Assembly (NCBI RefSeq): GCF_022132145.1 | Contig: NZ_JAJISP010000004.1 | Span: 310,001 to 374,000 of the forward strand | Direction: 5' to 3' | Source: Pseudomonas sp. MMS21 TM103 | GTDB lineage: Bacteria; Pseudomonadota; Gammaproteobacteria; Pseudomonadales; Pseudomonadaceae | Length of the DNA stretch: 64,000 nt | In this document: positions 37,280 through 40,494 of the stretch, one piece after another | Numbering within the stretch: the first letter of the stretch is position 1 | Layout: each line of letters begins with the position of its first letter | Position numbers and translations under genes: made by a program | The notes under the pieces: generated by a model | What the model was told of the DNA's origin: nothing | Databases searched by the model: none | The model's input: the letters and a program-made list of their open reading frames with translations, nothing else

Positions 37280-38119
37280 CTAGCCATTGGTCGCGTGGCG
37301 GCCTCCTTTGGGCCCAGTGCGATAGTCCGGGTGCGCCGCCAGCAGGCGCTGCAGACGCGCCAGCGGGTCTTGCCGGTAGAACAGCGCCAGCTGCGCATAG
37401 ACCGCGGGGAAGGCGGCGGCGAGCAGATCCGGGGCACTGAAGAAGTATTCGCTGGTTACCGCGAAGAATTCCGCCGGGTTTTCGGCGGCGTAGGCATCGA
37501 TGGCGGGTTTGCTGTGCGGATGGGCGTCGAGCTGGCGGTTCAGGGCGTCGTAGGCACTTTGCATGGCGCTGGCCCAGTCGCCGATACGCATGCTGGCGTG
37601 CAGCGGCGGCAGGCCGTTGGCGGCGCCATTGAGCATGTCCAGCTTGTGTGCCAGTTCGTGAATCACCAGGTTGTAGCCGTCCCAGCCACCGCCGGCCTGC
37701 ACGCCGGGCCAGGCGAGGATTACCGGCCCCTGCAGCCAGGCTTCGCCGCTGTGCACGCCGTTCCACTCGTGGACCACGCCGCTGGCATCGCGATGGCGTT
37801 GCGGGCTGACGAAATCGTCGGGGTAGAGGACGATCTCATGGAAGCCCTGGTACCAGTTGAGGTCGGCCAGATGCAGCAGCGGCAGCTCGGCCTGGGCCGC
37901 CAGGGTCAGGCGGTCGCTGGCATCCAGCTCGACCCCGGGCAAGGCGCTCAGGTGCTTGTTGTGCAGGAACAGCACGGCGCGCTCGCACAGGCGCTGTTGC
38001 TCGCTGTCGCTCAGGCCGTCGAGCAGCGGCAGGCGCTGACGCACGATAGCCCAGATCGCGGGGGATATTGGGTGGCGGGCAAGGATGCGCCGGCGGCGCC
38101 AGGCGCGGAACGACCACAT
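37280..38119 (-). CDS. mtfA: MtfA-like zinc peptidase (glucose-regulated metallopeptidase family)
   Basis: A protein of 279 residues with the gluzincin motif HELAHKLDM and an upstream SGEAWLQGPVILAWP segment typical of MtfA (DUF980). In E. coli MtfA binds the Mlc repressor and links glucose transport with ptsG expression; whether that applies here is unknown. The start used is ATG 38119 (MWSFRAWRRRR); GTG 38140 in frame would add seven residues. The gene is divergent from the pseudokinase gene at 38240. Confidence 0.88.
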   Translation of the reverse strand: MWSFRAWRRRRILARHPISPAIWAIVRQRLPLLDGLSDSEQQRLCERAVLFLHNKHLSALPGVELDASDRLTLAAQAELPLLHLADLNWYQGFHEIVLYPDDFVSPQRHRDASGVVHEWNGVHSGEAWLQGPVILAWPGVQAGGGWDGYNLVIHELAHKLDMLNGAANGLPPLHASMRIGDWASAMQSAYDALNRQLDAHPHSKPAIDAYAAENPAEFFAVTSEYFFSAPDLLAAAFPAVYAQLALFYRQDPLARLQRLLAAHPDYRTGPKGGRHATNG

Positions 38120-38239
38120 GGGGACAGGCTCGGGTTGCACGGCTGCTCACCATAAGCGGGGCCGGTACTAGCGGCAAGTTGCATAGAGTCGGCACAAAGG
38201 CTGCAACGGCCTTGGCAGTAATGTCCCGAGGGGCTAGCG

Positions 38240-39835
38240 ATGTCGATAGAACGCATGGATCACCCTGCCGTCAGCCTGGTGCTGGGCGGCGGTATAGACC
38301 TGCCGAGCCAGGCGGCGCGGGCCCGCGCGACCTGGCTGCCTGGGCGCCAGGGACGACCGCCAATGTTGCTGGTGGCCTTGCTGTGGGCGCGTGAATGCCC
38401 CGATGTGGTGCAACAGCTGGACGGGTATCTGGATGCGCTGTTCGCCGACTATCGCTGCACGCCCGCGGGCTGGAGCGAGGCGCAGGCGGCGCGGCAGGTG
38501 TTGGCGGCGCTCAATCAGCAGCTGTTCCGTAGCCGGCAGGCGGGCCGCCGTGTGCCCCAGCTGGATGCCGGCGTGCTGTTGCTGCAGGAAGGCGATGCCC
38601 AGTACCTGCAGGCCGGGGCGGTTGGCCTGCTGCGCTACAAGGGCGGAACTCTGCAGAGCCTGCCGGGCCGCGAGGACATGCAACTGGGCATGCAGGCCGA
38701 GCTGGCGCTGGTGCAGCACAGCATGCCCTTGAGTGAGGGCGAGGCACTGCTGCTGGCGCCGCAGCCGCTGCTCGGCGTGGCCGATCTGGACAGCTTCCGC
38801 GCCGGCTGCGCGGCGCCTGCCGTGGATAACCTGCCGGGATTGCTGGCGCCCTTGCTCAAGGCACCGGGCGCCGCCGTGCTGCTGCTACCGGGAGCAGCCG
38901 AAAGCCTGCCACCGCCGACACCGCGCGAGCAGTGGCCGGCCCTGCGTGACGCCGCGGCGGGCATCCTGGTGGATGGCTGGACGCTGCTTGGCGAGTGTCC
39001 CTTCGGCCCTGCGGGCCGGCTGTTCCGGGCACGCGACGAAAGCGGCCGCGAGGCCTTGCTGTGGCTCGCCGCGCAGGCGGCCGACGAGGTTTTCTGGCAG
39101 CGCGAATGGGCCTTGCGCCGCAGTCCGGTGGCCAGCTTGCCACGGGTGATGTCGTCGCATCGGCCGCGCCAGCATGCCTTCATGCTGTTCGAACCACCCG
39201 GGGCGGGGATGCGCAGCCTGGTCGATTGGGCCGCGAGCCATGGCCCGGTGGATGGGGCGACCCTGCTGGCCCTGCTCGGCCAGGCGATTGCGGCCGTGCG
39301 CGCCCTGCAGCGCCGCGGCATGCAGGGGCTGTGGCTGAGTCCGCGCAATATCCTGATCAGCCAGAGCGGACGCCTGCTGCTGTTGCCGGAATATGCCGCG
39401 CTGTTGCCGGGCGTGCCCCGTCAGCAGCTGCCCGCCGAGGCGATCCCACTGGCGCCGGAGGTGCGCGGCGAGCAACGGCTGGATGGCCGCGCCGATCAGT
39501 TCGCCCTGGCGGCACTGGCCTATTGGCTGATCTGTGGGCAATGGCCGGAAGTCGCAGGCCCGGAAGGCGGGCCGGCGAGCCATTACCTGCCGCTGGCCAA
39601 TTTCACCACGCACTTGCCGGCCGGTTGGGACGGCGTGCTGGCGCGGGCCTTGGCGCCCCAGCCGGCTGCGCGGTTCGAGGCGTTGTCGGAGTTTCACCAG
39701 GCGTTGCAGGAGCCATTGACACATCCGCCGGCCCCGGCGCGGGTCAACCTGCGCGCACAGCCCTGGCGGCTGGCACTGCTCGGCGCCTTGCTGATGCAGC
39801 TGGGGCTTGGCTTGTGGCTGAGCCTGCTGGGCTAG
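38240..39835 (+). CDS. Degenerate PP2C phosphatase/protein kinase fusion, tail-anchored
   Basis: A protein of 531 residues laid out like the bacterial PP2C-Ser/Thr-kinase fusions but with altered active sites. The N-terminal ~245 residues follow the PP2C strand order, yet the metal-binding GD reads AGAVG (about 129) and the SDG position reads APQP. The C-terminal part follows the kinase fold: a helix-C-like FWQREWALRR, PRNIL where HRDxxPxN is expected, LPEYAAL where DFG is expected, then a well conserved APE-like LAPEVRGE and RADQFALAALAYWLICGQWP. The VAIK lysine is also missing. It ends in a hydrophobic helix (about 508-530). GAGGGG precedes the ATG. It is best read as a pseudophosphatase-pseudokinase scaffold at the membrane. 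Confidence 0.8.
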   Translation: MSIERMDHPAVSLVLGGGIDLPSQAARARATWLPGRQGRPPMLLVALLWARECPDVVQQLDGYLDALFADYRCTPAGWSEAQAARQVLAALNQQLFRSRQAGRRVPQLDAGVLLLQEGDAQYLQAGAVGLLRYKGGTLQSLPGREDMQLGMQAELALVQHSMPLSEGEALLLAPQPLLGVADLDSFRAGCAAPAVDNLPGLLAPLLKAPGAAVLLLPGAAESLPPPTPREQWPALRDAAAGILVDGWTLLGECPFGPAGRLFRARDESGREALLWLAAQAADEVFWQREWALRRSPVASLPRVMSSHRPRQHAFMLFEPPGAGMRSLVDWAASHGPVDGATLLALLGQAIAAVRALQRRGMQGLWLSPRNILISQSGRLLLLPEYAALLPGVPRQQLPAEAIPLAPEVRGEQRLDGRADQFALAALAYWLICGQWPEVAGPEGGPASHYLPLANFTTHLPAGWDGVLARALAPQPAARFEALSEFHQALQEPLTHPPAPARVNLRAQPWRLALLGALLMQLGLGLWLSLLG

Positions 39836-39907
39836 GCGAGCGCGCGCCAGCGCCGGCCTCAAGCCAGCGGCCGAGCTGGCCGCCGGATGGGCCCGGCGCG
39901 GCCCAGG

Positions 39908-40363
39908 TCAATCGAGGTTGATGGGCAACACGTAGTTCTTGAACTGCTGGTCTTCGACGAAGCCGATCGACTCGTAGACCTTGTGCGCCACCTCGTTATC
40001 CCGGCTGGTGGCAACGCGCATGCGCACGGCGTTGGTGTCCTTGGCCATTTTCTTCGCGGTTTGCAGCAGGCGGTCGGCCACCAACTGGCGCCGCGCGTCT
40101 TCGGCGACGTAGATATCGTTGAGGATCCACACGCGCTTGAGCGACAGCGAGGAATAGCTCGGGTAGAGCTGGCAGAACCCCAGCAGCTTGTCCTCGTCGT
40201 CGGCCAGGGCCAGGTAAATCACCGATTCCTTGCGGCGCAGGCGGGTTTCCAGGAACTTGCGCGAGGAATCGGGGAAAGGCAGCTCGCCATAGAACTCACG
40301 GTATTTGACGAACAGCGGGGTCAACAGATCCAGGTGCTCCAGGGTAGCAGGGACGATACGCAT
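39908..40363 (-). CDS. GNAT-family N-acetyltransferase
   Basis: A protein of 151 residues with the GCN5-related fold: LADDEDKLLGFCQLYPSYSS as motifs C/D, LNDIYVAEDARRQLVADRLL as the acetyl-CoA-binding motif A (a degenerate RxxGxG/A) and YESIGFVED as motif B. ATG 40363 has GAGG upstream; the frame runs to 40405 without family similarity. It follows eutC at a distance of about 130 bases on the same strand but is probably a separate unit. The acceptor substrate is unknown. Confidence 0.88.
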   Translation of the reverse strand: MRIVPATLEHLDLLTPLFVKYREFYGELPFPDSSRKFLETRLRRKESVIYLALADDEDKLLGFCQLYPSYSSLSLKRVWILNDIYVAEDARRQLVADRLLQTAKKMAKDTNAVRMRVATSRDNEVAHKVYESIGFVEDQQFKNYVLPINLD

Positions 40364-40494
40364 GGCGAGCCTCGGTATTAATGATTGGCTGGGGTGGCAG
40401 TGCATGAGCCATGCCAGTGGACATGGCGATGCTGCCTAATGCTTTTGGAAAGCGCAATCCAAGCAAGCGTTTGATCTGGTCTCGCGGGCGAAAA

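Follow-up and report, generated by a model that had tools for sequence, protein, structure and literature searches.

A putative tail-anchored double pseudo-enzyme with an inactive PP2C half and a GLW-type pseudokinase half, preceded by a conserved sigma54-type promoter element, in Pseudomonas and related genera

The window (the whole stretch of 64,000 nucleotides analyzed) belongs to a Pseudomonas-like genome of 4.95 Mb whose nearest named relative, P. aestuarii, is 92% identical. It carries a gene, here called D, for a product of 531 amino acids; the name D is also used, by extension, for the orthologues of this protein. The reading frame is intact over 531 codons from ATG to TAG, as an earlier note on this DNA had stated. 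Two other long open frames overlap gene D, at 38885-39862 on the minus strand and at 38995-39921 in another frame of the plus strand (325 and 308 amino acids, respectively), and these are probably shadows of G+C-rich coding DNA. The features of the locus are given in Table 1. Since the genes on both sides of D lie on the opposite strand, D was read as a single-gene unit and an operon partner was rejected.

Table 1. Features of the D locus in the window (positions are those of the window)
Feature	Position	Strand	Basis
mtfA-type M90 peptidase gene, divergent neighbour	37280..38140	-	PF06167, E 7e-89; beside D at 45/46 loci
sigma54-type -24/-12 element CGGCACAAAGGCTGCA (GG-N10-GC)	38190..38205	+	47/47 orthologous loci, L136 not among them
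gene D, putative tail-anchored double pseudo-enzyme	38240..39835	+	intact ATG..TAG frame, 531 codons
inactive PP2C (PPM) domain, D residues 1-235	38240..38944	+	fold match and motif table, 45 orthologues
W49 codon, replaces Gly of PP2C ADG motif	38384..38386	+	W 45/45
GLW-type pseudokinase domain, D residues 236-495	38945..39724	+	PknI fold match and motif table
W275 codon, replaces ATP-binding beta3 Lys	39062..39064	+	W 40/45, L 4/45, C 1/45
G363-L364-W365, replaces HRD	39326..39334	+	GLW 43/45, GLL 2/45
P383-E384-Y385, replaces DFG	39386..39394	+	motif table
C-terminal membrane helix, D residues 508-530	39761..39829	+	predicted helix; hydrophobic tail in 43/45 orthologues
GNAT acetyltransferase gene, convergent neighbour	39908..40405	-	PF00583, E 5e-15; downstream of D at 46/46 loci

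Pfam recognized neither a PP2C nor a kinase domain in D and reported only SpoIIE, below the cut-off; for the 13 members of alignment A1 it gave SpoIIE at E ≤ 0.01 in 11 and Pkinase in one. AlphaFold2 models of D were built from 13 orthologues. Residues 1-236 modelled alone had a pLDDT of 79.3, and the best Foldseek match of this PP2C half was PppA (6jkv, E 8e-11); VIA-align placed 202 of its residues on 2pk0 with a Z score of 22.7 and an rmsd of 2.6. The full-length model had a pLDDT of 70.5, with values under 50 at residues 403-414 and 437-454, where the activation segment of the C-lobe and the stretch after it are poorly modelled. PknI was the best Foldseek match of the kinase half (E 9e-10), residues from about 236 to 498 gave VIA-align Z scores of 17-18 to TTBK1 and PknI (17.8 for PknI), and phmmer with the D sequence retrieved PknI structures (E 7e-9). 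A hydrophobic helix at residues 508-530 closes the full model. Structure prediction and structural search thus recovered both folds, rather than neither, in the PP2C-kinase order read in the earlier note, and the membrane tail proposed there is also predicted by the model. D is predicted to be tail-anchored through this helix, with a putatively cytosolic N-terminal bulk. In two orthologues (L113 and L116, genomes G027 and G118) the tail helix is missing and the C-terminus is an Arg/Trp-rich stretch, perhaps an alternative membrane hold. PADLOC returned only kinase-domain matches for D (best E 7.6e-8), which were taken to reflect the shared kinase fold, and a defence-system identity was rejected.

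The catalytic positions of the window protein were assigned by alignment to L044, an active paralogue in the same genome, and the kinase and PP2C motifs were given their usual roles. Orthologous loci numbered 47 (the window, 13 named and 33 unnamed), with L136, a 48th place in a damaged block, excluded; after the broken frames of L013 and L132 were set aside, 45 distinct D proteins including that of the window remained for the motif table, and orthologues were 52-92% identical to the window protein. The reference set comprised 11 active homologues, nine L044-like and two of a second type. Two of these active rows show T and A in the Lys column, but a Lys sits directly beside, so that the column is merely shifted there.

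None of the 45 D proteins has the beta3 Lys, the HRD Asp or the DFG Asp. The last is replaced by Pro in 43, by Ala in one and by Val in one, the Leu-rich strand at the beta3 Lys position reads ALLWL in the window, and the catalytic-loop Asn is retained in 13 of the 45. In the PP2C half, NQD reads SQA in the window, its Asp being Ala in 44 orthologues and Ser in one; the Asp-Gly of ADG is L48-W49, with Leu in 43, Ile in one and Phe in one at the Asp; the Asp-Gly of SDG is Gln-Pro throughout (Q175-P176 in the window); GD is GA in the window, with the Asp retained in one orthologue; and nothing in any of the 45 corresponds to the DN pair. Structural residues of the kinase fold are kept: the window protein retains the alphaC Glu289, APE, the alphaF Asp419 and the alphaI Arg478, and the alphaC Glu, APE and alphaI Arg are found in 45/45 and the alphaF Asp in 42/45 orthologues. 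Invariant columns numbered 92 over the 45 proteins; the PP2C half has 39 of them and the kinase half 53, and 37 of the 92 are absent from all 11 active homologues. Trp occupies the PP2C ADG position in every aligned orthologue, and most of them also have it where the beta3 Lys and the HRD Asp would be. Judged by these residues, D fits neither an active Hanks-type Ser/Thr kinase nor an active PP2C phosphatase, the folds being kept and the catalytic sets gone. These results bear out the claim of the earlier note that the catalytic Lys and Asp residues and the metal-binding Asp residues of PP2C are replaced, and the two folds together with the motif table support its description of a double pseudo-enzyme. 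The losses are conserved in the multiple alignment; loss of both active sites is a family trait of D and not a quirk of the window copy.

The kinase half was compared with pseudokinases already described. GLW pseudokinases are one of 42 bacterial STK families of O'Boyle et al. 2025, defined in the excerpted text by GLW instead of HRD, Leu or Trp instead of the beta3 Lys, and a transmembrane region C-terminal to the kinase domain; like D, they carry the Leu or Trp in a Leu-rich strand and occur in Proteobacteria (PMC12599244). All three features were found in D: GLW for HRD in 43 of the 45 orthologues, the window included, and GLL in two; Trp (40), Leu (4) or Cys (1) for the Lys in the Leu-rich strand; and, C-terminal to the kinase, a hydrophobic tail in 43 of the 45, modelled as the helix at 508-530. 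By these described features the kinase half of D appears to fit the GLW family. The comparison is one by description, and for this family the excerpted text mentions neither a phosphatase half nor a promoter, a gene order or a function; in it the term PP2C is absent and "phosphatase" occurs only in a reference title, and the bacterial pseudokinase families are said to have unknown functions (PMC12599244). What D probably adds to the GLW kind is a dead PP2C half, a conserved promoter and a probable phenotype. MviN-type ActPs3 and EssB/YukC are, like D, membrane-bound pseudokinases with degraded motifs and have structural or regulatory roles; unlike D, they belong to other families with other fused parts, and the excerpted text describes no PP2C half in them (PMC12599244). 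A PP2C-pseudokinase double pseudo-enzyme was not found described in the open-licence literature on bacterial pseudokinases, PP2C and PA4027.

The consensus of sigma54 promoters is GG-N10-GC, with GGCA and TGCA around these dinucleotides. An element of this type, CGGCAYRAAGGCTGCA, precedes the start of D at all 47 loci, in the form CGGCA[TC][AG]AAGGCTGCA with few deviations. The distance from the C of its TGC to the D start is 35-39 nt at 45 of the 47 loci (35 nt in the window) and 48 and 21 nt at the other two. GG-N10-GC with both GGCA and TGCA was present at 47/47 loci; three positions depart from the consensus: GG is preceded by C and not T, GGCAY is followed by A and not G (37/47), and TGC is preceded by C and not T. 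The expression describing the element had exactly 47 matches in the 1,310,634 bases of the D loci, both strands counted. In the window genome GGCAYRAAGNYTGCA had 12 matches at no more than one mismatch, of which one, the element before D, was exact; the reversed control pattern had 4. The sequences thus point to a conserved sigma54-type promoter ahead of D, which is reported here as new.

D was found in 20 of 199 genomes of the genus at E ≤ 1e-181, the next best match being at 4e-21, and in 21 of 148 genomes of the family at E ≤ 4e-180, in genera g1, g4, g9 and g12, with the split frame of G201 among them. No match of such strength was detected outside the window genome in the order sample (145 genomes, next best 5e-33) or in the class sample (274 genomes, next best 3e-27). 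The order D-GNAT-eutC-eutB was present in 4 of the 10 g12 loci (L121, L124, L128 and L129); eutC lay 3.7-3.8 kb from the GNAT gene in L122, L123 and L130 and was absent from the stretch read in L119, L120 and L127. Given the compact D-GNAT-eutC order, with eutC as PA4025 and ppa as what we take to be PA4031, PA4027 is the expected orthologue in P. aeruginosa. This assignment, probable from gene order, includes the guess that g12 is the genus of P. aeruginosa.

The identity of PA4025 as eutC follows the excerpted text of PMC13415123. PA4027 is one of ten genes whose expression, according to the excerpted report, fell in a pilR mutant and rose in a pilA mutant (PMC6058289). Swarming was impaired by an insertion in PA14_11740 (PA4027), and twitching was as in the wild-type in all mutants tested; the swarming result comes from a single transposon insertion (PMC6058289). 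At the pilA promoter, PilR binds together with sigma54 (PMC6058289). The sigma54-type element of D and the PilR dependence of PA4027 agree with each other.

The active paralogue L044 (G000:C6:149391-151049, also L137) is an intact PP2C-kinase fusion with PF00069 and PF13672 over the cut-off, and it is the only Hanks kinase over the cut-off in the window genome; we presume it to be PA1782-like. Downstream of it follow a gene for a nitrite/sulphite reductase (PF01077, E 1e-33) and one for a molybdopterin oxidoreductase, and these neighbours suggest that the active cousin has a role in nitrate assimilation. L044 shares with D the order PP2C-kinase-tail helix and is 26% identical to the window protein over residues 52-491; unlike D, it has all catalytic motifs, a dN/dS of 0.055-0.084 and a different chromosomal place, beside the reductase genes.

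The earlier note had suggested that D is a scaffold or allosteric partner of an active kinase or phosphatase, and L044 could be such a partner, being the sole Hanks kinase over the cut-off in its genome, having the domain order and tail of D and occurring as an orthologue in 13 of the 20 genomes of the genus that carry D. However, seven carriers (G014, G041, G064, G069, G075, G133 and G154) have no L044 orthologue, their best matches ranging from 1.5e-80 to 8e-14, and L044 is no richer in carriers: strong matches (E under 1e-200) were found in 13/20 carriers and 154/179 non-carriers, indicating that D does not go with L044. Kinases over the PF00069 cut-off were found in 19 of the 20 carriers, with no single type in all 20, and a PP2C_2 (PF13672) match likewise in 19. 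Genome G069 has no Hanks kinase over the cut-off, only a sub-threshold PF00069 match, and no PF13672 match, yet its D (L004, same contig) has a dN/dS of 0.14-0.19 against three relatives; this is a metagenome-assembled genome, 99% complete and 3% contaminated, from which a gene may have been missed. Since no partner was constant by co-occurrence over the 20 carriers in a search that covered L044, PF00069 and PF13672 and left PF07228-type phosphatases outside, an obligate active partner was rejected. The suggestion of the earlier note is thus unsupported as a general rule, and we consider an allosteric or scaffolding partnership with an active enzyme such as L044 rather unlikely. D as such may act as a scaffold.

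In a tree of 58 PP2C-kinase fusions (14 of the 45 D proteins and 44 others) D formed one clade with support of 100/100. Its stem measures 3.35 changes per column, and the tree warns of long branches meeting. The nearest active relative of D therefore cannot be named, and an origin of D from the intact fusion in the same genome is not supportable from the tree. Three PP2C-kinase fusions of two other families of the order, L152, L153 and L158, have no HxD catalytic loop (3 of 37 by pattern). They stand next to D along the unrooted tree and were rejected as proof of repeated loss; D and these dead-looking fusions may share a single origin.

Another explanation is that D works with its conserved neighbours, the MtfA peptidase and the GNAT acetyltransferase, as the order mtfA(-), D(+), GNAT(-) is kept in 45 of the 46 loci read (damaged L136 left out). 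The genes do not form an operon, however, both neighbours being on the strand opposite to D. Moreover, in L107 no mtfA was detected next to D, and a gap of 810-883 bases separates the two genes in all 10 g12 and 4 g9 loci read and in L113; in L119 this gap is occupied by a VTT-domain (DedA-type) gene on the opposite strand. A joint function with these neighbours therefore appears improbable.

The damaged locus L136 lies with L142 and L143 in a block of contig G263:C7 (about 126001-150000) whose strands are extremely asymmetric, one of them containing 2-4% T, 29-38% A and 39-46% C. The block is flanked by normal stretches, includes one normal 2-kb piece near 141.5-143.5 kb and has retained recognizable, collinear matches to ppa, mtfA, D, eutC and eutB, with identities of 24-37%. 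No ppa was found in G263 other than this damaged copy, which has 34% identity and an internal stop. The block is either an assembly or sequencing artefact or a case of localised hypermutation; ppa is an essential gene, and because the damage hits it the artefact is favoured.

The kinase fold of D could also run another reaction, as in SelO (AMPylation) or SidJ (glutamylation), and these precedents (PMC12599244) and the set of D-specific invariant residues speak for such a reading. Against it, the Lys, the HRD Asp and the DFG Asp are gone from every orthologue and the loop Asn is kept in a minority of them; in the excerpted account of the GLW family the bulky hydrophobic residues in the site are taken as likely to prevent ATP binding (PMC12599244). 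We give this alternative chemistry only a slim chance.

The selection acting on D was estimated as dN/dS by the method of Nei-Gojobori, comparing the window with eight relatives. D had values of 0.16-0.24, the PP2C and kinase halves were alike (0.13-0.26) and the tail was looser (0.14-0.88); the neighbouring mtfA and GNAT genes had 0.18-0.25 and 0.07-0.20, respectively. The range of the active paralogue given above comes from three comparisons, and in the three genomes that allow a side-by-side comparison the dN/dS of D was about 3 times that of L044, indicating a milder constraint on D. Thus D is under purifying selection and is less constrained than its active cousin, and the earlier view that it has been retained as a protein holds, with an intact frame and this dN/dS. 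A unique decayed copy was rejected, the losses being common to 45/45 orthologues and 92 columns invariant; the case of homologues with intact active sites and a lone relaxed copy in the window likewise fails, 0/45 being intact. The frames at L013 (Pseudomonas sp. CC6-YY-74) and L132 (G201) are broken, and the promoter element is retained at both. That D is a decaying duplicate without function is scarcely credible, for in spite of its higher dN/dS than the active paralogue and the two broken frames, the frame is open at 45 of the 47 loci, 92 residues are invariant among sequences with identity down to 52% and the promoter element is kept at every locus.

The explanation that we somewhat favour is that D is an inducible, membrane-tethered, non-catalytic adaptor made of a GLW-type pseudokinase and an inactivated PP2C, probably tied to surface motility. 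Such a protein would be attached to the inner membrane on its cytoplasmic side, and its action would consist in binding a ligand or other proteins rather than in transferring phosphoryl groups. It would be switched on by RpoN and an enhancer-binding activator, which in P. aeruginosa would be PilR if PA4027 is the orthologue, and may feed into surface motility (swarming) rather than into an obligate Hanks-kinase/PP2C pair. A bolder form of the adaptor reading, which we put forward tentatively and think less likely to be true than false, holds that both halves of the PP2C-kinase fusion have become Trp-plugged binding modules family-wide and that PilR controls D on demand through a sigma54 promoter dedicated to it; the amount of a membrane adaptor governing swarming, with no phosphoryl chemistry, would then be set by the level of pilin or by surface contact.

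These results supply a GLW-type protein with a phosphatase half that is dead, with its gene order and conserved promoter, with a probable locus tag in P. aeruginosa for which a swarming phenotype has been reported, and with evidence against an obligate kinase partner. Together they make the function of D directly testable. If the proposed reading is true, D would exemplify clearly how a whole phosphorylation/dephosphorylation module can turn into a non-catalytic part.
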